In this document: positions 16,012 to 35,275 of the stretch, in pieces
Position numbering within the stretch: the stretch's first letter is position 1
Layout of the letters: every line of letters starts with the position of its first letter
Assembly (NCBI GenBank): GCA_963377175.1
Contig: CAUJNA010000580.1
Location: 1,044,347 to 1,108,346 of the forward strand
Direction of reading: 5' to 3'
From: Effrenium voratum
Taxonomy: Eukaryota; Sar; Dinophyceae; Suessiales; Symbiodiniaceae
Length of the DNA stretch: 64,000 nucleotides
Notes under the pieces: model-generated
What the model was told of the DNA's origin: nothing
Seen by the model: only the letters and a program-made list of their open reading frames with translations
The model's database searches: none
Translations under genes and position numbers: made by a program

Positions 16012-16016
16012 ATAGG
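16012..16016. repeat. Target site duplication (left), ATAGG
   Basis: ATAGG directly precedes the TG end of the left LTR and is repeated exactly after the CA end of the right LTR at 33800-33804. A 5-bp duplication is the normal integrase footprint of Ty1/copia elements. Confidence 0.9.
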
Positions 16017-16364
16017 TGTCAAGAGACGGCAAGGTGACGTCCCGTGGGACGCTGCGCACCGAACCCTCAAGCTTTAATACCAACCACGTAGAAAGGTGTA
16101 TACGGACGATGCCGTTATAGCCGAACCCGTGTAAACGTTGTAAGGAAGAAGGAATGATAGTTACAACAGTAGTCCTGACAAATGCAGCGCAAGCAGTTGT
16201 TTTCGCTCTTAATGCCGATCACGTAGGTCTGCAGTCACACATCAGATCTTGAACCTCAATTGTGTCTTGAGCCAAATGGCGATCAATGGAACTTGGGAAG
16301 CAACACCAACAAGGACCTCAGAACAGCTACCCAATTTCGGCACGGGGCCTAGAGGGTTTTAACA
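16017..16364 (-). repeat. Left LTR (3' LTR of the element), 348 bp
   Basis: It begins TGTCAAGAGACGG and ends GGGTTTTAACA on the plus strand, so it has TG...CA ends. It matches 33453-33799 almost base for base; the differences include one extra A in a run near 16180. Confidence 0.93.
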
Positions 16365-16378
16365 TCCCCCATTTGGGT
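16365..16378 (-). promoter_or_regulatory. Polypurine tract next to the 3' LTR
   Basis: On the minus strand the bases just before the LTR read ACCCAAATGGGGGA. This purine-rich run sits exactly where plus-strand DNA synthesis is primed in LTR retroelements, and it confirms the minus orientation. Confidence 0.65.
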
Positions 16379-16989
16379 CGCATTGTTCATCATGCGGTCC
16401 AAACACCACAAAACGTTCCACTGGCCACGGCTTCAACTACGAAATCGTGTCGTGCATTCTTTTACTTGCTATCACTACACCGTTCATTCGCTGTGAAACA
16501 TGCCGGGTTCGATTGTACGAAAAGTGAAACATTCATCCTCCAATCGAAGCACACATCCATATGCAGGTGTATATAATACACTGTGGCCACTTCACTTGAC
16601 CGCCAGTGAACATTCCAGCTGCCGCATTTGCGCATCGCGCAGCTGTCATCCATAAATGGGTTGGCCACAAAAGTCCACCAGACGCGCCCGCTTGTGATCG
16701 GTCTGCATATCTCCGGCAAAGAAACATCGGTGAGTAATCAATGCAAATCATAGCCATTCCAGATACCATGGACAATGCATAAATAATGAAAAGATATCAT
16801 CTATAAGGTAATAGTTCCATCCATGAATATCCAGAGCGTCATAGTCATCGGAATATGTAACCATGTACACACCCAATCATCTTGGACACATGAATATAAA
16901 TCATGACATAAGTCGTTCCACCGAAACAGTGTCGATGTGACGCAAGTAACAGATGGGGACTGGCCCACATCGTACCGCAATCATCATCT
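16379..16989 (-). other. 3' part of the retrotransposon, no clear gene
   Basis: A minus-strand frame at about 16720-16462 (SGRVWWTFVANPFMDDS, RKCGSWNVHWRSSEVA) could be the last exon or a diverged tail of the accessory protein. It has no recognisable domain and its link to upstream frames is unclear. Confidence 0.3.
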
Positions 16990-17656
16990 TCACGAAGCAT
17001 ACCTGTCCCCAATGGACAGCCTATGGGTACGTCGGCGGAACTCCTCGTCCAAGTTCTTCTGGGCTTCTCGTGCCCGGACACACTTCTTGTTGTAGTCCTC
17101 TGGCAACCAGTGCCCTTTCCGAAGGCACCAATCCAGCAGGGGTGTGTCGCATTTGTTCGGGTCGATGGCCGAGATGATGGCGCTCACGTTGACCGTGTAA
17201 CCATGTCTTGCCAAGGTTTAGGCCATCCCTCACGAATGATATATACTTACAGTTGAAAGCTAGTGCAAAACATCTGAAAATAATATCACCCACCGGGTGC
17301 ACTCGGTCCTTGACCAGGAGCTTCATTTCTTCCTTGGTGACATCGAGGATTCTTGCTGCAATCCACAGCTTGTAGAATGTGTAAAGTCCCTCGCATTTGC
17401 ACACCATCATACGAATATATTCGTCACGCTCCTCAACCGATCGGAAGGCTCTTGTCCGAACATTCTCCGATTGAGAAATCTTCGTTATTGTTGATGGCAA
17501 AAGTATACCTTCCTGATCATGCTCAGTGATGTTGGGGTACCTCTTGAAATCATTGTGATAAGGGCAGCCCGGATTCCCTTCGAGTCCGGCATTCATCGTT
17601 CTCTCCTCACCACCTTCAAACATCCCCCACGTCATGAAGGACCCAGTTATCCTCAA
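16990..17656 (-). CDS. Unrecognised continuation downstream of the Tpt1-like protein
   Basis: This begins immediately after the Tpt1-like frame ends. Two overlapping minus-strand frames carry protein-like sequence: one down to about 17200 (FKRYPNITEHDQEG; RSVEERDEYIRMMVCKCEG; FYKLWIAARILDVTKEEM), and one at 17214-16990 (RHGYTVNVSAIISAIDPN; DTPLLDWCLRKGHWLPEDY). GGTAAG at the end of the upstream frame and AACTGTAAGT near 17247 look like splice donors, so this may be a spliced C-terminal part. It has no family assignment. The ATG-less starts suggest it is not an independent gene. Confidence 0.4.
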
Positions 17657-19143
17657 ACATTCTTACCACATGATGGACATATCCGGCACCTCAGTCCTTC
17701 CCATGTCTCATCATTCAGGATGACGACTTTGCTGACTTCGTCCCGGACCTCGTTGACCTGTGCGTTGAACTCTTCCATCTTGTTGTTTCGATAGAGTTCG
17801 CAAGCACGATTAACCATGTCAACGATGTAGTGCAGATTATCGGCACCTGTCTCAGTCTCCGGCATCCTCTCGCTGATCTTTGCGACGTTCTGGAGGAACA
17901 TCGCAGCCGACTCTTGGGAAGAGTTGACAAAGCCAGGGCAGATCTCGTTCTCCACACACTTCGAGTACGCCCTCTTGATGTCAGCGTACTCCAGGCGCTT
18001 CCCTCCGTTGCTTTTGCCAATCCAAATGGACTTGACCTCATAGAACGGGATCACGTCAAAGACCATGAAAGTCCCATTAGCCGCGACTCCAGCCCCATAC
18101 CGCGCGAGGGTTGCACTGGGAATATAGATGATCGCAATCGGATCCCCTCTCCTCACGTTCCGTAGCGTTGTCTTCGTCGCCACGTTCATCTCATCCCATG
18201 GAGCAAACGCCCCGAAGTGCAGTGCTAGCCTGTTACCGCCATCGATTCCGCCGGGGACTAGCCCACAGCGTACGATGCTTGGCAGGTTTTCCACATACGT
18301 CACATGGAATGCTCCTCCGAGAGTATCACCCATTCTTGCGGAATACCTATTCGCCAGTGCGGATGAGCTCATGAATCCAAAATCACTGTGACCGGTTGTG
18401 ACTCGGATGCACCAAGGTCTGTACCATCCATCGCATCTGTTGAACATCCTGTCGATGTCGTCCCGATCCACGCCAGCCTTGGTCATTTCCTCCCTGGCTG
18501 CCCTCGTGTCGTTCGGGTTCATGATGCTCGGAAACCTTGCTGCCAGAACCTGGAATCTCGATTTCTTGCTTCCGGATTCCTGCCACTTGATCACCTCCAT
18601 GATGCCCATGTATCGTTTCGCTCTCGTGGTGTATGGTGGGAATATGTCGTTGTTCCGGTCGTCAATGACAGCATCAATGTCGACCCATCCACCCTCGTCG
18701 CACCTGAAAGCACTTCCTCGGCAATTGCCGATCTTGTGTCGAAGGACTCTGCATAGGTCGTGAGATAGCTGGTTTGCTTGGTCCCTTGTAGTAAATACCG
18801 AGCGATCATCACCAATCCTGCATAGTGGAGCACCGTCGAAAGGAGCAATGCAGAAGTTGACACTCTTGCCAAGTTGCATCACGTCCACTTGCTCAAGGAT
18901 TGCACCTTTGGAAAAGTATTTGGGGTCAACGATGGACGCATACGCCCATGGCAAGTGCACATCACTCACATCGCCATACTTCGGGATGTAGCACGGGATG
19001 GTGTCGCATCCCATCTCAAGCGTCTTCTTGAATGTCCTGCTGTCCCCGCACGGGTTGTAGGTGAGGTCGACGCCACCACATTGTAGCTCTCCTCCCTCAG
19101 CCGTGTCAGCCATCTCCACCAAATTAATAGTGTAGCTGTACAT
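17653..19143 (-). CDS. Tpt1/KptA-like RNA 2'-phosphotransferase domain protein
   Basis: This is a 496-codon frame. From about residue 125 the motifs of Tpt1/KptA appear in order: CRVLRHKIG with the catalytic Arg-His pair (134-136), the winged-helix tail GGWVDIDAVI (151-160), CIRVTTGHS (245-253, family IRxxxGHS), HVTYVENLPSIVRCGL (280-295, family HGT), and ANGTFMVFDVIPFYEVKSI (355-373, family NGV near the end). Known enzymes use NAD+ to remove an RNA 2'-phosphate left by tRNA splicing, through ADP-ribosylation. An insert of about 70 residues separates the two lobes. The ~120 N-terminal residues (CGGVDLTYNPCGD) are unknown. It lies downstream of the long accessory ORF with a one-base frame change near 19155; the decayed copy at 43580-43720 reads straight through, so both were probably one polyprotein. 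The domain call is by motif only. Confidence 0.7.
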   Translation of the reverse strand: MYSYTINLVEMADTAEGGELQCGGVDLTYNPCGDSRTFKKTLEMGCDTIPCYIPKYGDVSDVHLPWAYASIVDPKYFSKGAILEQVDVMQLGKSVNFCIAPFDGAPLCRIGDDRSVFTTRDQANQLSHDLCRVLRHKIGNCRGSAFRCDEGGWVDIDAVIDDRNNDIFPPYTTRAKRYMGIMEVIKWQESGSKKSRFQVLAARFPSIMNPNDTRAAREEMTKAGVDRDDIDRMFNRCDGWYRPWCIRVTTGHSDFGFMSSSALANRYSARMGDTLGGAFHVTYVENLPSIVRCGLVPGGIDGGNRLALHFGAFAPWDEMNVATKTTLRNVRRGDPIAIIYIPSATLARYGAGVAANGTFMVFDVIPFYEVKSIWIGKSNGGKRLEYADIKRAYSKCVENEICPGFVNSSQESAAMFLQNVAKISERMPETETGADNLHYIVDMVNRACELYRNNKMEEFNAQVNEVRDEVSKVVILNDETWEGLRCRICPSCGKNV

Positions 19144-22100
19144 CTCAATTGTTTCTTTCCCTGCTTGTCCCCCTTCTTTCTTTCCTTGGACGTTGATGAG
19201 GACGGTTCCTCCGTATCCCCCATGTCTTCATCAGATGAAACAGGGTCACTGCTGAGTAGCTCACGGAGCACCTTCATCGCCTTCTCATTTCCAGCAGCCT
19301 CCTCAATGTCCTTGCAGTCGCCGTCGTGGGCCAGGTTCGCGCACTTCTTACAGATCCCCATATCTCCCATGCACTTCTCCATTGACTCCAGGAATCCTAG
19401 TGCCGCTCTCCGCCCGTCGATCACTCGCTGCTTCTTGTCTTCCTTCTCAGTATGGGTTTGAGAACTTCGACTCGGGTCTGGTGCTTGACCAAGACCCTCA
19501 TCTTCGCCCTCCGTGGCCTTTCTCTTGGAACCTTGTGCAGAGGGCTCGGTGAGCAGGGATCGTGGATGTCTGGGCTTGACCTTGTTCATGATGTCAAGCA
19601 CCTCCTTCGTGGGCACGCCGAGCTGTGCGGACGGTTTGTTCCGCTTACTGTTCTGGCCCGTCGTGTGGGTCATGACAAGCACCTCCTTCGTGGGCACGCC
19701 GAGCTGTGCGGACGGTTTGTTCCGCTTTCTGTTCTGGCCCGTCGTGTGGGTCACGTTCCCAGCGAGGTGTAGCACTATTGACTGCTCGAACTCCCTCTTG
19801 ATCTTCCATGCATCCTTCCACAGTGGCAGTTCGTGCTGGAAGTACGACATCACCTCAAAGAATCCCAACACCATCTCGACGACGTCTCCCAAGGATTCCT
19901 CGTTCGTGGTTTGTCCCAGGAGTTCATACATCGTTACTTGGTCGAGCACACTCTTGATCCAGGACGAATATGCCACATTGCCAAGATCCTTGCCTATCAA
20001 GAAGATGGACATCCTCTCCTCGACTCCCTCGGAATTCTTGCCCACGATCACATCCCGGGATGCGCACAATTGCTTCCCGTGACCGGTGTTGTAGAACTGC
20101 GCTGCTTGATCCACAGTCATGCTCACGAATCCCACGTGAGAAAGCTCCTTCTTCAGCCTTGAGTACGCGAGCTCCCGTATGATCGTGATCATGGCCTGGA
20201 TATTGTTGACGTCCACCATGAGGTTTTGAAGGTCAGGGATTGCCACCACGCATTCCGCGAAGAGGCGCGTGTACATTTTCTTCCCCTCGATAGACATTGC
20301 AATACCGTTCGTGTCCGCGTTCCAGTTTGCGCAACAGTTCACGCAAGAAGAGGGATTGTACTTCGACTTCGGTCCGAGCACCTTCGACTTGCTCATCTGC
20401 ATCTCTTTAGCGCAAAGTTCGCAGATAAACTTGCTGAGCTCCGTGACCGTATACCATCGAAGACGTTGATCACCGGCATCGGCTTTTCCAAAAGCATCCT
20501 GCTCGCCGTGTCCTTCATCTTGCCGCTCTTGTTTCCTCTTCGACTGTGCAGTGAAGGTCGGCTTGTACTCGAATTTCACCTTCGATTCCTCCATGTTCTT
20601 CGGGATGTTGAATCGAAGGTCGGGCTCGTTTATGCACGTCCCCTCCAGCTCACACACTAACGCGTTGCTTGGTGCGACCGCATCGATGGATTTCTCAATC
20701 AGCAGTCGCTTCAGGAGGAAGTGTTGCAAGTTCGAGCTCCCAGGGATCTTGTAGTTCTTTCCTGTGAGCGCATGGACCACGCGCCACAGGCGATCGTTCT
20801 CGGTCACCAGCGCGCCTGCCGCCTTGCAGATCTCGCGAACCTTGTTGGCGATCGTCCCCAAGTCCCCTCTTCCACCATGGAAAGCAACATCGCGATTCAC
20901 GCTCACCACGACCAGGCCCTTGCATGTGTTGACCAGGTCAGATATCGCCTTCTGTAGGGAGTCGATGATGGGGTTGGCGGTCACCTGCCATCCGCATCCT
21001 CTCATGCACACCCAATCATATAGCGACATCCAGATGTGCACCGACATTGGCGAGTCATCCATGTCTCGCCTCCGCCGTTCAGCGATGAGCTTATCCAGCT
21101 TCTGCAATCGGGAGATGAGATTCAACGTGTCGTTGGGTGAGGAGACTTGCTCACTCGACCCATAGTATGATCTCTCCTCGATGTTTGTCCATCCCTGTTC
21201 GTTGACCATCATCTGGAAGGTCTTCGTGCTCCCTTTCGAGTTGACGGACCGCAGGGGCCAATCCAGGACCAAGAAGCTCTTCTTGTGGATCATCATGTCG
21301 CGAATCGTCGCCTCGCCAATGGGGCTCCTCTTCTGCCTATTGATGATCCGGTTCAACTGTCCAGGTGCGTTGTCCGGGTTCTTCTCCGCCTGAATCAACG
21401 CGTTGATGGCTTTGGCGCCCGGAAGGCGTCCAGTAATCAAGCATCCTGTTTGGGCACACAAGAAAGCATACAGCTATAGCCATGCCGCATTTCCCTTCCC
21501 AACATAGGAAAGAATGATCTTCTCCGCGCTGGTCTTCTCCTCGAAGTGCAATAGCGAAGAGGTCAGGCATCTCAGCATACACTCCCAATATGTTGCGTTC
21601 TTGCCTTCTGCAAGACACGGCCCAAATACAGTTTGTATGATTGGGTACCCCGTATTGTTGTCTATGTTGAATTTCACATTGACAGTCGCGCCGCCCAAAG
21701 TGGTACCCCCTTCAAATGAAGTGTAGGTATCGTGTCCAGCAGTTGGGTTGATAATTACCCATCTGTCGTCGTCACCGCCAGAGTTCATTCGGAAAATGGA
21801 GTCGATGATCTCGTTGTCGATCCTGACAGCGTCGCTGGCTTGCGACCCCCCACTTGGAGCTCCCGGCTGGGGGACTGACCCACCAGCGGTTTGACTCCTT
21901 TGTCCGGAGCTCGATGCCGACTTCTGCTGTCGCTCCGTCTTCCGCGGCGGCTCGGTCTTCGATGAGCCCATCACCCACCATGTCGGCTCTTCCCCAACCA
22001 CGAAATCCTCGGGGTACTTCTCCAGTTCCCTCTCGATTTCATGAATCGTGCAGTATTTATTCTGGAAGAATTCGATCATGACGTCCTTCTCGGCCTTCTT

Positions 22101-23348
22101 CTCGATCTCCTTCATCCAGCTTACCCACTTGCGCCGATCTTGGTTCTCAGCGGCCCTGTCAGCCGCGTGCGGTGCCAAACTGATGGAGTTGATGTTCATC
22201 GCAGGCAGCTTCGACTCATAGATCATATCGATGCACCACAGGAAATCCCTGGCGTACTCAATCTCCCGGTAGAGATCGTTCAGCTCCCTTTTGTCTGGAC
22301 GGAAATAAGCTGTATACGACTGATCTTTGGAGTCCTTCTCACCGAGCAATGGCTGCAATCTCCTCATGATGAAAGAACGCACATGAGCGAATTGACCGCT
22401 CCGATGCACGCGTCAGAGATGTCACTGGGGGTTGACCCACAGATCATCCAGCGCAATAGGTTGTTCTGGCTGGCATTCTCATCCCTCCTCAGTGCATATG
22501 CGAGGTTCTTCATCGATGCCTGCAGCTCATTCTGGTAGACCAACCCAAGGTCCCAATTCTTCTGGTAGTCGTCCTTGGAACCACGACCGTAGGAGTCGAT
22601 CTTGGGAGCCTTGATCACGCTCAACGTGAACACTTTCCCCCCAGTTTCGATCTCTGTATCTTGCGATTCTCCGGTCGTGCCTCTCAAACTCTGCAGTTGT
22701 CTGGAACTCCTCAGAGCTCCTCCACCTTCTCGATGACGATGCCCTAGATGACTCGTCGTTGATGAATTCTTTGTACACCTCCCCAACCGGGGTGTTCTGG
22801 TGGAATGCTGCTTTGAACGACCGTTCATCGTTGTCCTCGGCCACGCCTAATGCGAGATCCCAGATGTTCGCGATTGATCTCAACATATCCGCCCCTTCCA
22901 TGCAGTACTTGGTTACGTTGAGCATCTCGGGGTTCTTCGCCAGCATCGTTGCCTCACCGCAAAGTTGGTTCAGCGCCGACACGATCTTCTTTCCCTTGCT
23001 GCAGAATTCCCTCCATCCAAGCATACATTCGTCGGCAGAAAGCTGTCCGAAAACTTTGCTGATGAACTCTAAGGCAACCCTCATAGACTGCCCTTCACCT
23101 TTCATCATCCCGCGGCCCTTGGCAGAGTAGTACGCAGAGTATGCATAAATAGCGGGGACGCCTATGTCCTCGATCCACTTCACGCACATGCCCAGGTCGC
23201 TGCTCATCTCCATCCTCTTGGGTATCCTCTTGCCTTCCTCGATGGCGTTCTTCACCAAATTTCCCAAGAAGATTGCTGCTTGCCTAGATTTCCCGACAGG
23301 CACGCAGAAGAACTCATTCGTATTGACGACATTCGGATTGGCAGTCAT
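19130..23348 (-). CDS. Long accessory polyprotein of the retroelement, unknown function
   Basis: A methionine at 23348 (MTANPNVVNTNEF) opens a region of about 1,400 codons that stays protein-like through four breaks: a frame change in a G-run near 22660, a one-base deletion near 22365, a TAG at 21472-21474, and a one-base loss near 19155. Recognisable sections are a basic serine/arginine patch (ASSSRRWRSSEEF), a low-complexity linker (KTERQQKSASSSGQRS, about 21900), a compact conserved core (NPTAGHDTYTSFEGG; YPIIQTVFGPC; YWECMLRCLTSSLLHFEE; CLITGRLPGAKAINAL), cysteine pairs (FICELCAKEM; SCVNCCANWNAD; MGICKKCANLAHDGDC) and an acidic tail (SSDEDMGDTEE). Two CxxC pairs could bind zinc. The decayed copy at 40106-44995 is similar throughout, so the protein was conserved. 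I do not recognise the family. Confidence 0.6.
19595..19756 (-). repeat. 81-bp in-frame tandem duplication in the accessory ORF
   Basis: Two adjacent 81-bp units, near identical, encode a 27-residue repeat (TGQN-KRNKPSAQLGVPTKEVL). The second copy of the element (about 43130-43200) has only one unit, so the duplication is recent and specific to this copy. Confidence 0.85.
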
Positions 23349-23689
23349 CTTGATGATATTCTCCAGAACCAGGAAAACCCAAAATAAGCAGCTGCAAATG
23401 AAGCCACGGAATTGTCCCAATATGATCCCAGCTTCAGATTGAGGTGACGAACTCGTCCAGCTCCTCCTTGAAGCTTGGGGTTCGGGACTGACCCAGCTCC
23501 CCGTATGCACCAGAGGTTCGGGACTGGCCCAGCACCTCGGTTGTGCAGTTGGGGTGGTGCAGATTTCGCTCGCAGTAGCTTGGTGCTTCCGCGATCTCCT
23601 TCGCGTAATGCAAGCAAGAGCGAGTTTCAACGGTGCCGGTTTGAGGCACCTTGCTCGAGCACGAAAACGGCGAAGGATCACACCCACAA

Positions 23690-25160
23690 TTATAGACGTG
23701 TACAACTGGGTTTCTTTGGTTTCACGACCAGCACAAGGTCCATGCTCATGGTTTCCATTGCATTTCTTAGACAACGAGCCACCAAGTTCAAAGTTCCATG
23801 AGACAACTCTCCATGGTTTCTTGATTGGCATGGGTTTCTTTGCATATCTTTGTTTCAAGCCATAGCGACACCCATCAAACTCGTGACTAGTCCCATCATG
23901 CACGACCTCATGCAGTCTCTCATCTTTCCAATAATCACAACTTCCAGGCAACTCAAACAAAATCGCAGCTCGTTTTGTCATGGCATGCCGTTTAATTTCA
24001 ACGAACCGTTCAAATAATCTCCAAAATTCTCTTTGTTTGGCCTCGATTTTCTCTGCGGTGTCAATGCCGCGAGTCTTGTTGAGGCGTGCCCATGATGATC
24101 CCCCCGTGCAAGGCCCGGCGAAGAACAACAAATCGGAAGGTTTGGTAAGCACATGTCTGGCGATTCTCCCCCCGTACTCGCTCAGTAAGTCATCAACCAG
24201 AGTTATGGTGACAACCTGCGGCCCGTCATGGCGGGCAAGAGCAGTGAACCAGTTACGCGGTTCGGAACATGCCATCAGCACGATGGGCCGAGCCAAGTCA
24301 ACACTGTAAAGAGTGACGACTGTGCGAGTTCTCATACCAGGAAGCGAGACATGAACAGGAGCGCGAAGCACACCACCGTCATGTTTGACCATCGCGAGTT
24401 CAATACCCGGCGCTAACTGTGGCTTGTGCTTCACCGCAATGCGATACGGAACAAAACAACGACCAGGGACAAGCTGCTCGTGATTGATATGCAGACAACG
24501 CATGAGCAATTTCAATCGGAGCAACGTTTCCAAAGCAAGGTCGTTAACACACTTCAACTCTATGCGCTCGTTCGACAGTTCTTCAACAAATGCGGCCAGC
24601 ACGGACTGCATGTCAACATCCCCGGACCCGACGTGAATTGGTCGTGGTCGTGGAGACCGTTCCCGCGCCGGTGCAGCGACCGGTACGGGATGAAACTGCC
24701 AAACTGCGCGTTCAACCCAACCATCAATTCGCACACATTGTAGCCCCGGGTCAACTCTATCCTCAACTTTGAGCCATGACCCATTCTTCAGAAACCAAGT
24801 GGAACGAAGCCACTTGCTCCCAAACGGTGTCATAACCGCGAGTGGAGGTTTTACACGCATCAATCTGGGTCCCTTGGCAACAACAACCGGATCATGTCCT
24901 TCATGCTCATGCAATCCCTCCTTGGATGTTAATCCAGACCACCATAGGTCCGGGGGCATGATCGGTATGTGTGTGTACGGAAATGTTGGAACTCCGTCAA
25001 CTGTCCCCGAAGCGGTCTGCATGGTCCCCTTTATGGGATCACACGTGGGTGTGAGCGCCTTGAGGGTATCCGGGTCAGACAGCAAGCTCGGGTCAAGTAG
25101 ACCAATCTGCAAACATGCATGTTTCCATTTGCGCCCATCATTGAACGCCTTGGTGTGATG
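23690..25160 (-). CDS. Pol C-terminal methyltransferase-like domain
   Basis: The frame at 25112-22527 continues from RNase H after a one-base frameshift near 25158 (before it the frame reads AADI, after it HTKAFNDG in the new phase). At codons 327-345 of this frame stands LLFFAGPCTGGSSWARLN, and at 384-396 ILFELPGSCDYWK, then FDGCRYGLK, KKPWRVVSWN (432-440) and a CNGNHEHGPCAG cysteine/histidine cluster (451-462). The PCxxxS and FExP spacing recalls motifs IV and VI of C5-cytosine methyltransferases. However, the ENV of motif VI is absent and motif I is not evident. Dinoflagellate copia-type Pol proteins commonly carry such a tail, and retroelement-linked cytosine methyltransferases are known. 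I call it methyltransferase-like, with enzymatic activity doubtful. Confidence 0.5.
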
Positions 25161-25984
25161 TCGGCCGCCATCCTGTCGGTGACCTCATACGCCAAGTACA
25201 TGTAATCACGTGTGAACATCTCAAGCATCCACGAAATGCTAACACCATGGCTTCTCTCAAGGTGGCGCATCGTGGGGTTTCTCCCCGATCGCACGACACC
25301 GATCATAGCCTTATTATCGTCATAGAACACAAAGTTCGGTGACTTCTTGAGAATCCGCTCTACCAGCTTGAGAGCGGGCATACCCATCGATCTCATGGCA
25401 ACGTCGGCCGCAACAATCTCGGCCTCGGGAGTGGAGTGACTCACACAACCCTGTCTTTTAGAGCTGCCAGACAACGGAAACCGGGTATTAGGCCCTTGTA
25501 TATTCAAGTGTCCACCGGAGGTGGAACGCAGCGAGTCAATGCATCCCGCAAAGTCAGCGTCCGCATACAAGGCCAAGTGCACATCGTCCATAGGGTCTCC
25601 AACCCAACCGACCATGCGCCAATGTTTGGTATGATGCACATAGCACATCAAGTGATGCAAACCCCGATCATCGGAGTCAGTCCACCTATGCACGTTCCGT
25701 GCTAGGCGATTAACTTGCCGCAACAAATCGAAGCGAGCAATCCGCGCACCGTACAGCAACTTCATCAGTACGCTAGCGGCATGCGGAGCAAGGTGTCCAC
25801 GCACGGGCTCCTTCATGGCCAACTCAGGAGTCCCTCCCCGTTGGTCCGGCACTGTGGCAGAACCGTCGGGGGGCACAAGATTGTTACACCAATTGCACAC
25901 GACTGACGGCCCCTCTCTGGCAGGCTTCCGTGAGACGTGATTCTTTGTTTCTTCATGCAACTCAGGGGTGACAACCTTATTCAA
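25160..25984 (-). CDS. Reverse transcriptase thumb and RNase H domain
   Basis: This lies in the same frame as the Gag-Pol ORF, directly after a TAG codon at 25985-25987. The copia-type RNase H motifs are present: LALYADADFAG (first Asp), SLRSTSGGHLNIQGP, SSKRQGCVSHSTPEAEIVAAD (Glu) and YDDNKAMIG (Asp), then HLERSHGVSISWM (His). It removes RNA from the RNA/DNA hybrid during reverse transcription. It can only be made if the TAG is read through or if another copy lacks it. The frame ends at 25031, but homology leaves this phase near 25158. Confidence 0.85.
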
Positions 25985-28900
25985 CTACACGTCGCCCGCC
26001 ACTTCAAGATAGCGGTCGACACAGGAACGTAGGAACTGTTCCATGTCATAGGTCACCGTTGTTACTCGGTGTCCGTTCCCGAGAGGGACGTTTCCCTTGC
26101 TTTGATTGCAACCAAGGTACATGTCAAGTCCAGTCTCGGGCTCAATCTTCAAACGTGTACGCAACATGCTCCACCCTTGGGCAAGGTTCTTCTGCGGCCC
26201 TGCCATTTTGAAGTCGTCGACATACACAACCAGAACAAGCTGGAGCTTTTCGTGGATGTACACTGAAGGCCATTCTTCGCCGATGGGCTCAAAACCAACG
26301 GCACGCACCGACTCATCGCAGTGCTGCTCCCAAAATGTTCCCGCATCTGGGTGTCCGTACAGCGCCTTCCTCAAAGGGACGACTGGTCTTCTGTACTTAT
26401 CCCATTTGCATTCACCTGGCACGGCCTCCGGTGGCAATTCAATCCAACACGGCGTGCCTCTCAAGGTGGCCTGTATATACGCCTGAACAGCGTCGGCCAT
26501 CTCCACATCCCAGCCATCATGACAACCCAGAAAATCCGCCCAACGCGAGGCTTCAAATGAAGCAGGGGAGTTCCCCAAATCTTGAAACATCGCAGCCTCA
26601 AAGCTTTGGTTCTTCACTTGGTTCCCCAGCAACACTCCTCTACCCTTGAACTTCCTCTTAGGATCACCAACAGGCAACTGTGAGTGCTTTTCAACGCAAA
26701 TGCCATGTGCGCGAGCCATGTGTATTTCCTCCCCCTTCGCTTTTGCTTCTCTGGCTACAGCGTCATATTCACGCACCGCGCCAAGTTCGAAGACCCCCTG
26801 GTCGATTAATCCCGACCACTCTTTCTTCATTGATGCCAATGCATCAGGGTTGGTCAACATCTCTTTCCGGCCTACCGGCCTGGATACTAAAGCGTCGAAG
26901 AATCGAACAACTTTCACAGCCTTCTCTCTGTGCTGTATTCGCTCAGAAGTCACGCACGGCATCGATGGGTACTTTTTGGCTTCACCGTCCTCGCCTATCG
27001 CAGGCATTGCGAGTGGCACTTTTCCAGAAACTATCTCAGCAGACTCCTCCCATTCATACCAGGTGAGATCCGTCGATTCGTCGACCGATGGATCCGTCCC
27101 CGATGCCGTATCAGCTTCGTCTTTATGACTCTCCATGACTGATGCAACCGCCTTCGTCCAGTTTGGAGTCGACTTTGATCGCTCCTCAGACTTGAACTTC
27201 CAGGCATAAATTACTACCAGACACTCAAATTCTTTCTCAAGCTGAACGTTTCGTCTCATGACGTCTTGGGACTGTTTGGAATCCATGAGAACAACCACCC
27301 CGTCGACAGGATTAACACCAATCCTGACCCATTCAAGCTCAGCCAAGTGCTTCCCATCCATTGGGTTCTTGATCTTTGATATGTTCTTCCGCAATCCCCA
27401 ATTGTACTGCCATTCTACTCCACCCCAGCGGTTCCGAAGCATCGCTCGAATTCTCTTACCACCGGGCATCTGTAATGTCCGTGCCTCTGCCGGCGCGGAA
27501 ATCTCAGACTCCTTACCCTTGGGATCTTCTTCTTTCCTTTTGCCACCGCCCTTCACCTCGGCCTTCTCTTCCTTGGTGTAATATTTACTCATCATCTTCC
27601 ATTCTTCAGGAGTGAACTCCGATGTCTTCATTAGCCTGAATCCAGGATACGGTCTTCCGGCCTTGTCGATTTTAACCTCCTTGCCATCGTCGTTGACGTA
27701 CGTGATGCCATCCCCAGGTAGTCCAACTGACACGTGTGGAAGGTCGGATTTCGCAACCTTCTCATCGCCCTTGGAGTGTCCATCTCCTTTCCCTTTTGAA
27801 GAGCTCGGTCTAGCATCTTCCTCTCCTGCATGATCCCCCCGACCTCCGGCGAGTACCTCCGGGCCATCGTCGAGCAGTAGACCAGCGATCTGATCGACTT
27901 CATCGTCAAGCAGTCGCTTCTCGTCACTCTGCAGCAATTCGGGCTCGTAGTCCTCATCTTCGATCAGGCGGTCACGCGCATCCAGACCGATTGCATCGAT
28001 AGACATCTCTATCCCTTCCAAAGTCTCGTTGGCAACCTTGTACTTCTGTTGTATTGGGAATGTCAGAGGAGATGTCAGAATCATCCTCTCCGTCTGATGT
28101 GGCATTCTCAACCGAGGTGGAACCTTTGCCTTCTTGATGTTCAGCTCTGCACCCGCAAATGCAGTAAGTGCCCAAGCACGATACTTGTTCGCCCAATGCA
28201 TACCGGTGCTCAACACATATCCAGCAAATATACCAGTTTCCCCTCTCGGCTCGAACTTCTCCCTCTTTCCCCCTCGTGCCTCGCTCGGCTTGAAGTCCAC
28301 TAGCGCACCAAAAGGTATCTTCTCGCCCTTGAACTCCTCGCCATGCAGCCTCATCCATGCACTCGATCCGTTCACCTCTTCGATGTTCATGAGATGACAC
28401 AGAGTGGTGATGGCTTGCACCCAATAACACGTGGGTAGACCGGCATGTACTAGACAAGCCGAAGTCTGGTCGATGATGAATTGATTTGTTCTGTCAGCAA
28501 GGGAATTGTTCTGCGGCCGTCCAGGCAGCGATAGGTCGTGGTTCAGCTTCAGCTCCACGCACGCATTGATCAGTTCCGGGCCGTCATCCGAATATACCTG
28601 CTTGATTTTCCTCCTCCCGCAGAAGTGCTTGATAGCCCTGACGACTGAGTCTGTGTCTCTTCTCGCGGTGGGATAAGCCATGATAATTCCGGTATATATG
28701 TCCCGGATGATGAGCGCATACCTACCTTCCACTTCATGGTCTCCTGATGCCGTCACAAAGTCGAACGTCACCAGGTCACCGAACGTCTTCACTTCTCTTT
28801 TGAATGCTCCCGTTCGCGATCTGAAGTGTCTCATCTTTGCCTTGACGCATGACTCGCAGAAGGGATTTCGGTACCTGTGTGTAAGCAAATGAGCTATGGA

Positions 28901-31246
28901 ATTGGCGTCCTTCTTGAGGACTCCCACTTTCCTCTTTATTGAAGATCCTTCGTACACGTCTACTTCGATTCCGGCATCTGGATCATCTTCATCAACCTCT
29001 TCCTCGTGAGCTTCGGCATCACCATGTCGATGCGGGACTGACCCAACATCTACAGGTATTTCCTCAGCCACGGGAGGCGGACGTACCGGACCGGCTCCTC
29101 CGGGTGGCCCGAAGTCGAATGCTCCGTCGTGGTGTTCGCCCTCGGCCTCTGCGGACTCACCGACAGCGGCGGGTGTGACGTCGTTCTCATCGTCACCTCC
29201 CTGATCTGCCTCGTCGTTCGTTACCATCGCCAATACTTCCGAAAAGTGCTCCTTGAGGTCGTCTATCGTAGGGCGATGCCTGTTACTCCGAAGCTTACCA
29301 TCACTCACTAGGTACGGGATGTCGTCCTTGACCTGCAAGTGCACGAATCCCTGCTTTGGCGTAACCATGAAAGGTAGTTTACCAGGCATCCAGTGAAATG
29401 CATAACCCATCTTCATGCATCTCTTCCCCACTGACAATACCGTGGGTGTCTCATCCAATACATGCGGCTCGACAGTCTCGTCCAACTCGTCCACGACTAT
29501 CTTGGCCACATCAGATGTGGAAGTGGAACCATTCGCGGTCTGGAACACGATCTCGTCGTCATCTTTCACGATGTCGACACCCAGGCTCTTCGCCTTGGCT
29601 CTTCCAATGAGATCATGACCACATCCGGTGTCCATCAACCATTTCACCCGTTTGCTGATGCACGTTGACATGGCGAAAACGTTCCTCGGCATACCATGCT
29701 GTTTCTTCCAGTCGACAGCCGATTCCTTGATCTCGTCCTTGTTCCGATCATACTCGAACATTATGCTGCTCTCCTTGGTCACCGGGAAGTAGTGCTTCTT
29801 ATATACATCATCCACCACTTCTCTCAGTATCTTCGCACGTATCAATGATCGTTGGACTTGGTAGGCTGATAATTCACGATGATCACTGCTTTTGAACTTC
29901 TTCTCATCGACGTACACGTACTGATAAGGCTCATTCTCGTTGTCCTCAAAACCGTACCATTCCCCTTTTCGTTCCCATTGCCTTCTCTCGTCTTCGAGGT
30001 AGGTGATCTCCCCATTCTCGTCGACGTCGAGCACGTCCTTGAACCACACCATTTTCTCGGGGATCTCGGACTCGCCAGACCATCTCGATGATTCGCTCAT
30101 CGCGTCGTCATCGTGCTCGTGGTAGACAGTCTCGGCTTCGTCCGGTTCGACCTGATCAACGTCCTTCTTGAAGCTTACCTTCCCTGCAGGAGCCGATTGC
30201 TTCAGGACTAGCGCGGGCATTGCGATGGCCCTCCTCGCAATGGCAGGCGCTGCGGCTTTGGCGGCAGCCTTCGACTTGGCTTGCGCCTTGTCATTTGACG
30301 TTGCTGGAGCTGAATTGTTCTTGATGAGCTCATGCCTGTACTTGCAAGCGCTTCCCCTATCGCACTTCCCCTTCTGAAACGCGAAGCATGCTCCATCATC
30401 TCTCTTTGGTGACGATGATCTGGACTTGGACTTGCCCTTTCCTTTCCCTTTGGACATACTCTCCAACTTGTGCTCCGTCTTCTTGCTGTGGGAAAAAGTG
30501 CATTCATTCCCTTTCACGCACCCCTTTGCCGATTTGAAGTGGTACCAGCAGGGGTTATCCTTGCTTCCGCCCGGACTCTTGCCTCTGTCGCTGGCACCGT
30601 CGGACTTGCCGGTCTTGCCAGCGTGGCCCTTTGCCTTGGCTTTTGGGAGCACAGGAGCGGCATCTGGTCCACCGGGTTTCCCCTTTCTGCCCTTGCCACC
30701 CTGGCTCTCCTGTTTGCCAGTTGCTGGAGCCGCATCCTTCCCGCCTGACTTCATCATCGACTTGACCGATTTCGCCTTCATGTCGAGCATCAGGTCTTCC
30801 CGATCTGCCTTGATCTGATAGTCGATCAACGCCAATAAGAATTCATACGTCTTCTGAGGATGCTTGTCCGGTAGTCTATGGTAGGCATTGAGGCCGAACA
30901 CCATCTTCTTGCTCCCTTTGATCTTCCTGTAAAGGATGTCTCTGAGAGCCAGCTTACTGGGTCTGTCCTCGCTCCTCATCTTCAGCAGCAAATCATACCA
31001 TTTTTTCCTGAACATGACCAAGTTCTTGTCGCCAGGAAAGTCAAGGTTGAATAAATGCTCGATGTGGTAGACAAGATCCGTTCTATCGGAAGTTCTGAAT
31101 GATTGCAAAACTAATGCCACCAACTCTCGTCCCTTCACGATCACCCCTTGTTGATGTCGTAGTTCAGAGTGTCGTGTAGCATCGAGGTATACGTCCTTGG
31201 CTTCGTCAGGTGCTTGTTTCAGCATGTTCTGCATGCCCATGGCCAT
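25985..31246 (-). CDS. Ty1/copia Gag-Pol polyprotein (to RT)
   Basis: This is a 1753-codon frame. Residues 40-160 are the copia Gag helical domain (RTDLVYHIEHLF). Two CCCH zinc knuckles follow at 233-253 (CWYHF...CTFSH) and 287-305 (CFAF...CKYRH), replacing the usual CCHC. The aspartic protease active site is MDTGCGHD (538-545). Integrase has the zinc-binding H787/H790-C797/C800 motif, then a catalytic core: D829 in TFDF, D887/D888 in YSDDG, and an unusual Asp918 in SLADRTNQ where Glu is normal. After an acidic, lysine-rich linker comes RT: ADAVQAYIQATL (first Asp, 1585), RKALYGHPDAG (1626-1636) and the YVDD box (1675-1678). The frame ends at TAG (25985-25987), just before RNase H. The annotated ATG is not the true N-terminus: Gag-like sequence continues upstream in another phase (31260-31500). 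Confidence 0.9.
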   Translation of the reverse strand: MAMGMQNMLKQAPDEAKDVYLDATRHSELRHQQGVIVKGRELVALVLQSFRTSDRTDLVYHIEHLFNLDFPGDKNLVMFRKKWYDLLLKMRSEDRPSKLALRDILYRKIKGSKKMVFGLNAYHRLPDKHPQKTYEFLLALIDYQIKADREDLMLDMKAKSVKSMMKSGGKDAAPATGKQESQGGKGRKGKPGGPDAAPVLPKAKAKGHAGKTGKSDGASDRGKSPGGSKDNPCWYHFKSAKGCVKGNECTFSHSKKTEHKLESMSKGKGKGKSKSRSSSPKRDDGACFAFQKGKCDRGSACKYRHELIKNNSAPATSNDKAQAKSKAAAKAAAPAIARRAIAMPALVLKQSAPAGKVSFKKDVDQVEPDEAETVYHEHDDDAMSESSRWSGESEIPEKMVWFKDVLDVDENGEITYLEDERRQWERKGEWYGFEDNENEPYQYVYVDEKKFKSSDHRELSAYQVQRSLIRAKILREVVDDVYKKHYFPVTKESSIMFEYDRNKDEIKESAVDWKKQHGMPRNVFAMSTCISKRVKWLMDTGCGHDLIGRAKAKSLGVDIVKDDDEIVFQTANGSTSTSDVAKIVVDELDETVEPHVLDETPTVLSVGKRCMKMGYAFHWMPGKLPFMVTPKQGFVHLQVKDDIPYLVSDGKLRSNRHRPTIDDLKEHFSEVLAMVTNDEADQGGDDENDVTPAAVGESAEAEGEHHDGAFDFGPPGGAGPVRPPPVAEEIPVDVGSVPHRHGDAEAHEEEVDEDDPDAGIEVDVYEGSSIKRKVGVLKKDANSIAHLLTHRYRNPFCESCVKAKMRHFRSRTGAFKREVKTFGDLVTFDFVTASGDHEVEGRYALIIRDIYTGIIMAYPTARRDTDSVVRAIKHFCGRRKIKQVYSDDGPELINACVELKLNHDLSLPGRPQNNSLADRTNQFIIDQTSACLVHAGLPTCYWVQAITTLCHLMNIEEVNGSSAWMRLHGEEFKGEKIPFGALVDFKPSEARGGKREKFEPRGETGIFAGYVLSTGMHWANKYRAWALTAFAGAELNIKKAKVPPRLRMPHQTERMILTSPLTFPIQQKYKVANETLEGIEMSIDAIGLDARDRLIEDEDYEPELLQSDEKRLLDDEVDQIAGLLLDDGPEVLAGGRGDHAGEEDARPSSSKGKGDGHSKGDEKVAKSDLPHVSVGLPGDGITYVNDDGKEVKIDKAGRPYPGFRLMKTSEFTPEEWKMMSKYYTKEEKAEVKGGGKRKEEDPKGKESEISAPAEARTLQMPGGKRIRAMLRNRWGGVEWQYNWGLRKNISKIKNPMDGKHLAELEWVRIGVNPVDGVVVLMDSKQSQDVMRRNVQLEKEFECLVVIYAWKFKSEERSKSTPNWTKAVASVMESHKDEADTASGTDPSVDESTDLTWYEWEESAEIVSGKVPLAMPAIGEDGEAKKYPSMPCVTSERIQHREKAVKVVRFFDALVSRPVGRKEMLTNPDALASMKKEWSGLIDQGVFELGAVREYDAVAREAKAKGEEIHMARAHGICVEKHSQLPVGDPKRKFKGRGVLLGNQVKNQSFEAAMFQDLGNSPASFEASRWADFLGCHDGWDVEMADAVQAYIQATLRGTPCWIELPPEAVPGECKWDKYRRPVVPLRKALYGHPDAGTFWEQHCDESVRAVGFEPIGEEWPSVYIHEKLQLVLVVYVDDFKMAGPQKNLAQGWSMLRTRLKIEPETGLDMYLGCNQSKGNVPLGNGHRVTTVTYDMEQFLRSCVDRYLEVAGDV

Positions 31247-31259
31247 CTTAATATCTATC

Positions 31260-31506
31260 GTAGCGAATCTGTCGCCACCTCACCTGAATCGCTAAGCAAA
31301 TCCAGGTCTGGGTTCAACCCAAGAGCCTGCTCCAGCCATTTCGTCCATGCGTCGGTATCTGGATCTGCACACGCGCTCAGAACATTCATCAGCAGTTGCA
31401 TCTTCCAGGTGTCAAGTTGATGGATCTTTGGCCAGGCCGGAATAGATACTCTCTCGGCCTCTTTCCTCGAGATTCTCGGTCGATCATTCTTGATCTCTCG
31501 GTTATC
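31260..31506 (-). pseudogene. Gag N-terminal segment between a TGA and a frameshift
   Basis: After the TGA at 31507-31509 the same frame remains protein-like (RPRISRKEAERV, WPKIHQLDTWKM, VLSACADPDTDAWTKWLEQAL), which resembles the N-terminal part of dinoflagellate copia Gag. Near 31275 the phase changes and continues as RFATIDIKMAMGMQ into the long Gag-Pol frame. The segment therefore links the coiled-coil ORF and Gag-Pol, and is separated from each by one lesion or recoding site. Confidence 0.6.
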
Positions 31507-33354
31507 TCACGATCTCCTTCGTCTCCTCCGTGTCCGATCGTCTTCTTCCTCTTCTTCTTCCTCGTCTTCCTCATCTCCTTCGTCGTCGTCATCCTCATCC
31601 TCATCATCGGGTGGATCATCCGGAGGCCCTCCTCCGCCACCAGCGAGGCTCAACTGACGTCGACCCGCTCCCTGCCCATTCCCATTGGGCGGGAATCCAC
31701 CGTTATCCAATGGGGGCGTAGTACCGTTGTTTCCCCCCCCATCACCACCACCAGTCGTAGTAGTGGATTGTGGGACATGCCCAACAACCCCTTGCATCTG
31801 GGAAAGGTGTACATCGATCATTGGATCACCGAAAGACGGAAAGAGGATCGAACCTGGCATCAGCGACGAATTAGGGATTTGATTTGAAGACGATGACGGG
31901 ACTGACCCAGCCACCTTCTTGTCTATCCTATTTGAATTAGCCTGGTTTCCTCCCTCAGCGCGTTTCACTACTGCTCGTTCACGATGTCCATCTTTGCTGC
32001 TGGAGGCTTCCTGTGTCTCCAGCTTCTTGTGTGCACGTAGTTCCTCGTTGTCAGCATCGAGTTGGCGTACAAAACTCTCTTCTTGCTTGAGCGTCGCCTC
32101 TCTTTCCTTCAGTTGTCCCTGAAGCTCATGCATCTCCTCGAGGTACTCATCGTACATTCCCTTAGCTGTCAGTCTCCAGTACTCAGCCTCCTTCGACTTC
32201 TCGTCCATCGTGCACCGTTCCTCTTGTTTCTCTTCTTTGACCTGGGCTAACTCCAAGAACGCATCCTGACGATGACCACCTTCGACAGCAATCATCTGGT
32301 CCTTCATCGACACGTCGGACTCATACTGTTTGACGATCTCTTCTTTTTCGCGAAGCAAGCAAACTGCTCTCTTCGATTCCTGTTCCGCAAATACTGTAAC
32401 GTCATTCAGCCTCGTCATCAGCTGTTCCCTGGAGTCCTCCAAAGAGTACGTCTCGGGGCGCTTGACGAGTGCATGCTCCAACTGTGATTTCAGACTTTGG
32501 ACCATCTCCTCCTCGTTGAACTTCTCGATAGATGTAGAAGATTCTATGCCTCTGATCTGTTGCAGATAAACTGATATCTGTTGTGAAGCCTCACGGTGTA
32601 TCTGATTTGCACGTATAGCTGATTCCTGCGCGGCCGACTTCTCGCTTGCCATGTAGGATTTCATCAATGCAATCTCCCGCTTCTGCTCCATGATAGTTCC
32701 TTCAGCTTGCCTCATCTGTTGCATTATAATATTCGACTCCATGTATTTCTTCTCCCCGTACTGAAATGCGTTCATTTCCACCTTGCGCATCTGTTGGGCT
32801 TCTTCCTCAAACTTGCGCCATGCCTCAGCCATGTGGTGTTGGTGGTGACTCACTAGATGTCCCGACTGCTTGCTGGCAATCTCGCATCGTCTTTCCAGCT
32901 CCTGGATCCGGATGGTGCTTCCATAGTCTTCTTGGTTAAGATTCGCCATTGCAGCCGACATTTCATCAAGTGTCTTCTGATATTCCCCGATCTCCACCTC
33001 CATCTTATTCTTCTCTTTGATCACGGCGCGAAAATCTGCACTGGTGGGTGATTTTGACCTCCCACCCTTCGATGTCGATCTCACGCCCTTCTGCGACGTC
33101 CGTGGTGTCGCAGGCGAAGATGATGATCTTCTCGGTGGGGATTCTCTTTTCTTCGACTCCTGATGAACATCGATCTGCTTCCATGATCTTGTGGGGGTAG
33201 AGATGTCGCTGAATAGCGCGGAACCTCCGCTCCCAGGTTCATCCTGTGAATCTGCAATCATATCCATCACCGCAGGAAGAGCCATCAATCCATTGGATCC
33301 CTCTGAGCTGCTGTTCCCAAAAGTTGCAGTACTTGGGCTCGCCGAAGACGCCAT
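31507..33354 (-). CDS. Coiled-coil Gag-like protein, 615 codons
   Basis: This is the first ORF after the 5' LTR. Residues 1-110 are Ser/Pro/Arg rich and low complexity. Residues ~110-470 are a heptad-rich coiled coil full of Glu, Gln, Lys and Met (for example EAWRKFEEEAQQMRK, EMHELQGQLKEREATLKQEE). Residues 500-590 are Gly/Asn/Pro rich, and the end is an acidic run followed by RTRRRRRRS. A long assembly domain preceding the copia Gag helices would fit a role in particle formation. It shares its reading phase with the Gag segment beyond the TGA, so it may be the true N-terminus of Gag. No enzymatic motif. Confidence 0.7.
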   Translation of the reverse strand: MASSASPSTATFGNSSSEGSNGLMALPAVMDMIADSQDEPGSGGSALFSDISTPTRSWKQIDVHQESKKRESPPRRSSSSPATPRTSQKGVRSTSKGGRSKSPTSADFRAVIKEKNKMEVEIGEYQKTLDEMSAAMANLNQEDYGSTIRIQELERRCEIASKQSGHLVSHHQHHMAEAWRKFEEEAQQMRKVEMNAFQYGEKKYMESNIIMQQMRQAEGTIMEQKREIALMKSYMASEKSAAQESAIRANQIHREASQQISVYLQQIRGIESSTSIEKFNEEEMVQSLKSQLEHALVKRPETYSLEDSREQLMTRLNDVTVFAEQESKRAVCLLREKEEIVKQYESDVSMKDQMIAVEGGHRQDAFLELAQVKEEKQEERCTMDEKSKEAEYWRLTAKGMYDEYLEEMHELQGQLKEREATLKQEESFVRQLDADNEELRAHKKLETQEASSSKDGHRERAVVKRAEGGNQANSNRIDKKVAGSVPSSSSNQIPNSSLMPGSILFPSFGDPMIDVHLSQMQGVVGHVPQSTTTTGGGDGGGNNGTTPPLDNGGFPPNGNGQGAGRRQLSLAGGGGGPPDDPPDDEDEDDDDEGDEEDEEEEEEEDDRTRRRRRRS

Positions 33355-33437
33355 TGTACTGTGTAGGTTATCGTTCCTTTATTGTCCCTGTACCCGCACT
33401 AAACCAGCTGTCTCCCAGTCCAGTGTAGAGCTTGTAG

Positions 33438-33452
33438 TTACGGCTGATAACC
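33438..33452 (-). promoter_or_regulatory. Putative primer binding site
   Basis: On the minus strand the bases just inside the 5' LTR read GGTTATCAGCCGTAA. The TATCAG core resembles the primer site of many Ty1/copia elements, which is complementary to initiator methionine tRNA. The match is short, so the priming tRNA is uncertain. Confidence 0.4.
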
Positions 33453-33799
33453 TGTCAAGAGACGGCAAGGTGACGTCCCGTGGGACGCTGTGCACCGAAC
33501 CCTCAAGCTTTAATACCAACCACGTGGAAAGGTGTATACGGACGATGCCGTTATAGCCGAACCCGTGTAAACGTTGTAAGGGAGAAGGAATGATGGTTAC
33601 AACAGTAGTCCTGACAATGCAGCGCAAGCAGTTGTTTTCGTTCTTAATGCCGATCACGTAGGTCTGCAGTCACACATCAGATCTTGAACCTCAATTGTGT
33701 CTTGAGCCAAATGGCGATCAATGGAACTTGGGAAGCAACACCAACAAGGACCTCAGAACAGCTACCCAATTTCGGCACGGGGCCTAGAGGGTTTTAACA
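33453..33799 (-). repeat. Right LTR (5' LTR of the element), 347 bp
   Basis: It begins TGTCAAGAGACGG and ends GGGTTTTAACA on the plus strand, and pairs with 16017-16364. It should carry the promoter for the minus-strand transcript; I could not pick out a convincing TATA element. Confidence 0.93.
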
Positions 33800-33804
33800 A
33801 TAGG
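33800..33804. repeat. Target site duplication (right), ATAGG
   Basis: Exact partner of 16012-16016. Confidence 0.9.
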
Positions 33805-34867: not shown

Positions 34868-35235
34868 GCAAGTTGCTCTCTGCAAGCTGCTGCACGCAAG
34901 TGCTCTGCGCAAGTTGCTCTGCGCAAGTGCTCTGAGCAAGTTGCTCTGCGCAAGCGCTCTGCGCCAGTTGCTCCGCGCAAGCGCAAAGCTTGCGCATGCG
35001 CTCTGCGCAAGTTGCTCTGCGCAAGTTGCTCTGCGCAAGTTGCTCTGCGCCAGTTGCTCCGTGCAAGCGCTTTGCGCATGTGCTCTGCGCAGTGCTCTGA
35101 GCAAGTTGCTCTGCGCAAGTGCTCTGCGCCAGTTGCTCCGCGCAAGCGCCTTGCGCATGTGCTCTGTGCAAGTTGGTCTGCGCAAGTTGCTCTGCGCAAG
35201 TGACTCTGCGCAAGTTGCTCTGCGCAAGTGCTGCC
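34868..35235. repeat. Minisatellite of ~13-bp CTCTGCGCAAGTTG units
   Basis: About 28 degenerate units of the form TTGCTCTGCGCAAG, often alternating with GCGCCAGTTGCTCC. The unit contains the palindrome TTGCGCAA. False frames on both strands encode alanine/cysteine/leucine repeats. Confidence 0.9.
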
Positions 35236-35275
35236 GGAGCTGTGGGAATGTACTTCGCGTACTATTTTTGTACTT

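Follow-up and report, generated by a model that had tools for sequence, protein, structure and literature searches.

Tpt1 enzymes remove an RNA 2'-phosphate in a two-step reaction that uses nicotinamide adenine dinucleotide (NAD+) (PMC6333775, PMC8131947), and some of them add ADP-ribose to RNA or DNA carrying a 5'-phosphate (PMC8131947). Their role beyond fungal transfer RNA (tRNA) splicing is described as an open puzzle (PMC6333775, PMC8131947), and KptA has been reported from a few genomes of RNA viruses, baculoviruses and mimiviruses (PMC9503650). Here we describe a Tpt1/KptA domain inside a retrotransposon of the dinoflagellate Effrenium voratum. Of 78 close protein clusters, the single named one (P0053, 91% identity over 28% of the query) is assigned to this species. 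The element lies in a 64,000-nucleotide stretch, which we call the window (C580:1044347-1108346 of the 1.156-Gb assembly, G000), and its family is referred to as W. We judge it likely that a ~5,560-residue copia-order Gag-Pol polyprotein contains, close to its C-terminus, a genuine Tpt1/KptA domain that element-level selection maintains and that acts with NAD+ on phosphates of element RNA or DNA.

The domain is carried by an open reading frame (ORF) of 496 amino acids (aa) that is truncated after 'CPSC', while intact relatives run on for several hundred more residues. Tpt1 in these elements bears a tail that, by eye, is zinc-ribbon-like (CPxC..CxC). The features concerned are as follows (dN/dS is the ratio of nonsynonymous to synonymous substitution).

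17653..19143, minus strand: ORF carrying the Tpt1/KptA domain, truncated after CPSC (ORF list, Pfam, alignment, dN/dS)
18034..18777, minus strand: Tpt1/KptA domain, about residues 123-370 of the ORF, with R135, H136, R196, R305, H280-x-T282 and R331 (Pfam, profile-profile comparison, alignment, structure model)
17021..17656, minus strand: C-terminal region of the polyprotein, a remnant in another frame (resembles the end of protein P0162)

A first-pass annotation had proposed a Tpt1/KptA-type domain here and suggested the corresponding Pfam profile as a check. In a Pfam scan, that profile, PF01885 (PTS_2-RNA), matched residues 123-341 of the ORF with 34.7 bits (E 2.3e-8), above the gathering score of 26. 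When the window ORF was aligned with nine other sequences (alignment A2), eight of the ten, the window ORF among them, matched PF01885 at E 0.01, and profile-profile comparison of A2 against 14 Tpt1 sequences from bacteria, archaea and phages gave a probability of 97.1% (E 7e-11). As a control, an unrelated domain of the same element gave 0.1% against the same 14 sequences. The proposal is thus borne out. A PDB sequence search with the window protein gave no match, the A2 profile found only two Tpt1 entries there (E 0.66 and 1.3), and P0172, a protein of subfamily 2, reached 17.4 bits with PF01885, under the cut-off. A PHROGs search with the Tpt1 ORF matched no family; P0162 matched one family without known function (E 0.0014). 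Scans of viral_contigs (queries: the window ORF, P0075 and three KptAs) and of a phage collection (query: the window ORF) yielded no lead.

The active site can be traced by alignment. In Clostridium thermocellum Tpt1 the tetrad consists of Arg18, His19, Arg68 and Arg121, accompanied by a His-x-Thr NAD+ motif (PMC6333775); the aligned equivalents in the window ORF are R135, H136, R196 and R305, with H280/T282. We counted each position over the covering sequences among 131 profile-matched relatives. The tetrad residues were kept in 58/67 (Arg), 57/68 (His), 72/76 (Arg) and 59/69 (Arg), and those of the NAD+-binding motif in 66/69 (His) and 68/75 (Thr). The Arg-His-Arg-Arg set, whose loss the first-pass annotation had named as grounds for abandoning its proposal, is therefore retained in most covering relatives. 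The Arg of IRxxxGHS, a motif listed in the same annotation, is rejected by the alignment as the third Arg of the tetrad; that position belongs to the Arg of the preceding K-x-R motif (R196). A by-eye reading that the third Arg is lost in subfamily 2 was likewise dropped once the K-x-R strand had been aligned. Between the K-x-R and IRxxxGHS strands, in the RNA lobe, the alignment shows an insertion of ~40 residues. Of 149 proteins, 120 were looked over. A divergent subfamily, comprising seven sequences among the matches listed (28-42% identical), keeps the tetrad and HxT wherever covered, except for one Ser at the fourth Arg; its equivalent of Arg331 is Lys in five of six sequences and Gln in the sixth.

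Structure prediction, also suggested in the first-pass annotation, recovered the ADP-ribosyltransferase-like Tpt1 fold. With bacterial and phage Tpt1 sequences in the alignment, the model was of fair quality (predicted local distance difference test, pLDDT, 62), and the 17 best of its 234 Foldseek matches were Tpt1/KptA structures. A model from retrotransposon sequences only was poor (pLDDT 44) and matched the Tpt1 RNA lobe weakly. The predicted fold of the domain has two lobes, an RNA lobe and an NAD+ lobe. The domain has a good likelihood of being an active NAD+-dependent enzyme of nucleic-acid phosphates. A chance motif match is ruled out by the Pfam score, the profile-profile comparison and the Foldseek matches.

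The first-pass annotation also placed the Tpt1 ORF within a retrotransposon with long terminal repeats (LTRs), and this holds. Window self-comparison delimits a 17.8-kb copia-order element at 16017-33799 on the minus strand, with LTRs of 348 and 347 bp that are 98.3% identical and have TG..CA ends, and a 5-bp target duplication, ATAGG, on both sides.

33800..33804, unstranded: right target-site duplication ATAGG (sequence)
33453..33799, minus strand: 5' LTR (LTR identity, TG..CA; C259 and C700, both open, have related LTRs on either side)
33439..33452, minus strand: GGTTATCAGCCGTA, a probable primer-binding site that immediately follows the 5' LTR and does not start with TGG (same bases after the 5' LTR of C259 and C700)
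31507..33378, minus strand: gag-like ORF, 623 aa stop to stop (no Pfam match; shares its frame with pol in the open copies)
25985..31279, minus strand: pol ORF, 1764 aa, with CCCH finger, aspartic protease, integrase and reverse transcriptase in copia order (Pfam)
25031..25984, minus strand: RNase H portion of pol, separated from the adjacent parts in this copy (position and motif, ADIYTK in the open copies; no Pfam match)
22527..25184, minus strand: C-terminal extension of pol, containing the 'FFAGPCTGGSSW' domain and a hydrophobic linker, and then the beginning of the extra region, Met at 23348 (eight close proteins, P0079-P0086, span both halves)
18966..22409, minus strand: central part of the extra region, its frame broken into ORFs 21474-22409 and 18966-21461 (continuous in the open copies; dN/dS 0.14 and 0.33 against the second copy)
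16365..16379, minus strand: GACCCAAATGGGGGA, a polypurine tract that runs up to the 3' LTR (identical sequence in C259 and C700)
16017..16364, minus strand: 3' LTR (LTR identity)
16012..16016, unstranded: left target-site duplication ATAGG (sequence)

Pol follows the order protease, integrase, reverse transcriptase, RNase H. RVT_2 alone passes its Pfam cut-off (35.2 bits), with rve (19.7), Asp_protease_2 (22.3) and zf_CCCH_4 (21) under theirs and RNase H recognized by motif. The element is a Ty1/copia-order LTR retrotransposon. Its copy in the window is broken: compared with relatives, the extra region has frameshifts, a stop and a deletion.

Open copies of family W exist elsewhere in the genome. 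A genome search with the window ORF gave 2,215 first-look places, 86 of which were scored. All 86 matched residues 1-493 or more at 98-100% identity with no internal stop, and at six of them the open frame exceeds 5,000 aa. Two of these six were read. C259:58765-75453 and C700:9016-25701 each contain, between two LTRs, a single frame of 5,563 and 5,562 codons, respectively, which runs through gag, CCCH finger, protease, integrase, reverse transcriptase, the end of RNase H, the pol extension, the extra region, Tpt1 and the C-terminus. Both carry a primer site and polypurine tract identical to those of the window element. The LTRs of C259 are 88.8% identical and flanked by the target duplication GAAGC; those of C700, whose frame is open, are 100% identical over 349 bp, and no target duplication was seen. 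Since a single open frame lies between the LTRs in both copies, we conclude that Tpt1 belongs to the retrotransposon polyprotein and does not lie beside it by chance.

Some further observations concern the LTRs and the gag ORF. The LTRs contain GCCATTTGGCTCAAG (33701-33715 and 16266-16280, minus strand), which we take to be the dinoflagellate spliced leader minus one T. Its score was reached in 0 of 1000 LTR shuffles, equalled at one other place in the window (~940-955) and at none in five window shuffles. Short-repeat arrays (~GCTCTGCGCAAGTT and a 15-bp unit) lie at 34872-36540, 1-3 kb beyond the right LTR. In one gene model, P0090, the gag ORF is joined straight to the start of the extra region, as a spliced message or a deletion copy might be.

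The window also holds a second copy of the extra region.

40111..44686, plus strand: second extra-region copy including Tpt1, LTR-less and frame-broken (window self-comparison)

The first-pass annotation had cited a conserved second copy at 43600-44520. The copy is real and ~80% identical to the first in DNA, but it does not represent a second LTR-bounded element. It is frame-broken and cut off within the unit at both ends, and no LTR match surrounds it in the window self-comparison (E 1e-10, over 80 bp); it is therefore a relic. Comparing the two copies, we obtained a dN/dS of 0.26 for the Tpt1 ORF (0.19-0.35, 400 codons) and 0.24 for the Tpt1 domain (157 codons), with out-of-frame controls above 1. 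Three other stretches between the copies gave 0.21, 0.14 and 0.33. The Tpt1 of family W is under purifying selection.

Tpt1 recurs in other elements of this genome. When PF01885 was run against the whole genome, 150 of 558 candidates were scored; all lie above the cut-off, and the window's own place is absent from them. Besides W, Tpt1 occurs in four further multicopy families, A to D, with an element type assigned for W and C (LTR), A (long interspersed nuclear element, LINE) and B (probable LINE). One ordinary TPT1-like gene (C276; 277 aa, 173 bits) stands among the 38 places read as sequence. In family A, a 2,062-aa ORF with Tpt1 (154.8 bits) is followed by a 1,505-aa ORF in which Pfam, run on two pieces, finds an endonuclease domain (29.6 bits) and a reverse transcriptase domain (46.6 bits); by this domain content, family A is a LINE. 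Family B has ORFs with endonuclease (25.6), reverse transcriptase (34.8) and RNase H (35.2), and then a 1,958-aa ORF with Tpt1 (64.5 bits). In family C, the 143-bp LTRs are 99.3% identical, the gag ORF contains CCCH fingers, and Tpt1 (61.4 bits) lies in an ORF of its own, 1,114 aa long; the pol ORF shows copia-type reverse transcriptase and RNase H motifs by eye and no Pfam match in the 845 aa scanned. Family D has a 669-aa ORF with Tpt1 (125.7 bits). Complete tetrads were found in A (19/19), B (8/8) and D (2/2), and family C is without the His in 6/6.

Three of these families show additional motifs in the ORF with Tpt1. The 1,958-aa ORF of family B (L054:1523-7396) combines Tpt1 with a region resembling a superfamily 1 (SF1) helicase, for which AAA_30 scores 17.6 bits against a cut-off of 27. 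In families A and D, Tpt1 is preceded by a cysteine-protease-like motif, 'GRGNCFWYAVS' or 'GRGACFWKSLS' (L051:2815-4380, L080:4313-6319), which appears OTU-like by eye and has no Pfam match.

For the Tpt1 domain in seven chosen pairs, dN/dS was 0.052 and 0.067 in A, 0.047 and 0.051 in C, 0.15 and 0.19 in B, and 0.16 in D. With values of 0.05-0.26 across five families, it is highly improbable that Tpt1 is a passenger, that is, a captured fragment of a host or viral gene of no use to the element. Captured extra ORFs are indeed known from other LTR elements (PMC5408684), but the tetrad is mostly conserved, both copies read have Tpt1 placed identically in one open frame, and no stop occurs within any of the 86 scored matches. 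In a tree, A, B, C, D and W each group with 99-100% ultrafast bootstrap; the order among the families and the host gene has at most 57%. Since the placement of Tpt1 differs between families (in a polyprotein, in an ORF3 of its own, in a LINE ORF1 and in a helicase-like ORF), the data argue for more than one capture. Tentatively, and with less than even confidence, we propose that retrotransposons of this dinoflagellate (W, C, A, the probable LINE B, and D) have taken up Tpt1 repeatedly, distinct from the host gene and under selection in all; this would imply a common pressure on element RNA or complementary DNA (cDNA), for instance a host defence in which RNA is cut, or in which 2'-phosphates or ADP-ribose marks are left behind.

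Several points weigh against reading Tpt1 as a selected polyprotein domain that recurs across families. Only 12 of 91 Tpt1-matching proteins also matched the middle region upstream, the gene models being mostly partial. Of the 150 genome places, sequence was read for 38 (A, 19; B, 9; C, 7; D, 2; host gene, 1) and the others were judged by score and range. The seven dN/dS pairs were hand-chosen, and dS is high in two of them, at 1.6 (C) and 2.4 (B; 232 of 300 bootstraps usable). Between the two window copies, the stretch 23346-22660 gave a dN/dS of 0.95 (0.65-1.37), although its frame is off (Met at 23348) and the neighbouring frame gives 0.31. Finally, C460 shares two 96% runs (4.4 and 3.2 kb) with the family B locus, from the interior of the last pol ORF into the Tpt1 ORF, and differs upstream; for this reason family B, which rests on one locus, is only probably a LINE.

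The domain would attack phosphate groups on the element's own RNA or DNA with the help of NAD+. In the form that we favour, it would clear 2'-phosphates, or terminal phosphates, that remain once ribonucleases have cut the RNA and it has been re-sealed. Being part of the polyprotein, Tpt1 would be packaged with the element RNA, and the element protease would free it. The kept tetrad favours the full two-step reaction, and since LTR and LINE elements both need an intact RNA template, the best fit is repair of their RNA or processing of its ends. That 2'-phosphate removal or RNA repair is the main use is plausible, though somewhat less likely than not. The uses suggested by the first-pass annotation were that the enzyme might protect, repair or cap the element RNA, or counter the host.

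Fitting nearly as well is ADP-ribosyl capping, in which ADP-ribose from NAD+ would be placed on 5'-monophosphate ends of element RNA or cDNA and shield them from exonucleases or sensors. This would suit LTR and LINE elements alike; some Tpt1 enzymes ADP-ribosylate 5' ends of RNA and DNA in vitro (PMC8131947), and a KptA structure with 5'-p-ADPR-DNA (9lda) is among the structural matches of our domain. Nevertheless, we consider capping unlikely: the tetrad Arg that serves mainly step 2 (PMC6333775) is kept in all five families, in 72/76 sequences of W and in every copy read of A-D, which indicates the full reaction over capping alone.

The primer sites raise another use. Families W and C share the 14-base site GGTTATCAGCCGTA (33439-33452; L056:5407-5420), which in family C stands at the end of the 5' LTR with its first G inside the matched repeat. 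The site does not start with TGG and does not look like a sequence that would pair with the CCA end of a tRNA; by eye, its complement resembles a tRNA anticodon loop (CTGATAA), and Drosophila copia uses a half-tRNA primer (PMC5371799). LTR elements might thus prime with a cut tRNA half whose 3'-end phosphate Tpt1 clears for reverse transcriptase to start. Such primer healing fits the LTR families only: A, a LINE by its domains, and B, probably one, need no tRNA primer, yet contain Tpt1. We regard it as quite improbable, and prefer repair or end processing of element RNA.

The pol extension bears on the origin of the extra region. After RNase H (23690-24440, minus strand) lies a strongly conserved domain common to many relatives, 'FFAGPCTGGSSW ... 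FDGCxYGL ... CxGxHxHGPCAGRET', for which we found nothing above the Pfam cut-off and no PDB sequence match; its identity as a DNA methyltransferase found no support in the searches. Proteins that run from the pol extension into the extra region include eight close ones (P0079-P0086), two at 41-42% identity and 15 at ~30%, and in a set of 83 proteins there are also two small separate matches in the extra part (E 4e-4 and 7e-4). As even distant proteins (~30%) span this junction, these elements have probably had the beginning of the extra region for a long time. The Tpt1 profile matched none of the 83 proteins (P0079-P0161), which by our reckoning stop short of the place of Tpt1.

If the extra region with Tpt1 derived instead from an RNA virus, it might serve, or once have served, a virus-like function. 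A few positive-strand RNA viruses have KptA domains within their polyproteins (PMC9503650), and the extra region forms a single long coding sequence preceded by a hydrophobic segment. Against this, Pfam scans of the extra region gave no RNA-virus domain (polymerase, helicase or capsid) above the cut-off, though a diverged one could escape; the sole viral match was Astro_capsid_p on P0162, with 9 bits against a cut-off of 25. Moreover, the N-terminal part of the extra region comes after this pol extension in less closely related elements as well. A viral derivation is therefore rather improbable.

Beside the second copy (plus strand, 46543-49481, continuing to ~58 kb) lie virus-like genes, beginning with a Pox_A32-type packaging ATPase (26.4 bits, cut-off 22.8). 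Past it come, by eye and with no Pfam match, two long capsid-like ORFs and then a DNA-polymerase-like TDTDS motif. These genes are possibly an endogenous polinton-like virus.

Among the papers listed in searches of the open-licence PubMed Central literature, judged mostly by titles and abstract openings, we found no account of Tpt1/KptA in a retrotransposon, and we know of no retrotransposon with an NAD+-dependent enzyme. Within that scope, what is new is that retrotransposons carry an enzyme of this type and that it recurs across five families in a single genome; accessory enzymes in retroelements are of an already known kind. With Tpt1 in five families and at least two retrotransposon classes of one genome, and dN/dS down to 0.05, these elements offer a natural setting in which to probe the role of Tpt1. 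They hint at a new way for mobile elements to protect or process their genetic material, and may point to an RNA-cutting or RNA-marking defence in dinoflagellates that is not yet known. If the proposal of repeated uptake is true, NAD+-dependent editing of nucleic-acid ends would be a general retroelement tool.

The W domain resembles Tpt1/KptA (PF01885) in its LRH, K-x-R, GHS, HxT and R-x-x-(V/L)-H motifs, its R-H-R-R tetrad and its predicted two-lobe fold; it differs in lying within a 5,560-aa polyprotein and in its ~40-residue RNA-lobe insertion, CPxC..CxC tail and weak family score. The element shares LTRs, a target duplication and the protease-integrase-reverse transcriptase-RNase H order with Ty1/copia, but is 17.8 kb long, has a non-TGG primer site, and its pol runs into a ~2,800-residue extension holding Tpt1. 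KptA also lies within a genetic parasite's polyprotein in nidoviruses and picorna-like viruses (PMC9503650); those are RNA viruses and the occurrence is rare, and the word 'retrotransposon' is absent from the main text of that report. Dinoflagellate retrotransposons of Symbiodinium have likewise captured a host-type enzyme (PMC5890265), in their case a DNA methyltransferase (DNMT) in LINE and DIRS elements, with Copia lacking DNMT and Tpt1 not mentioned in that paper. In the LTR elements of bdelloid rotifers with an enzymatic ORF3, as here, one enzyme type occurs across unrelated retroelement classes (PMC5408684); theirs are a GDSL esterase and a DEDDy exonuclease, whereas ours is a predicted NAD+-dependent phosphate enzyme.

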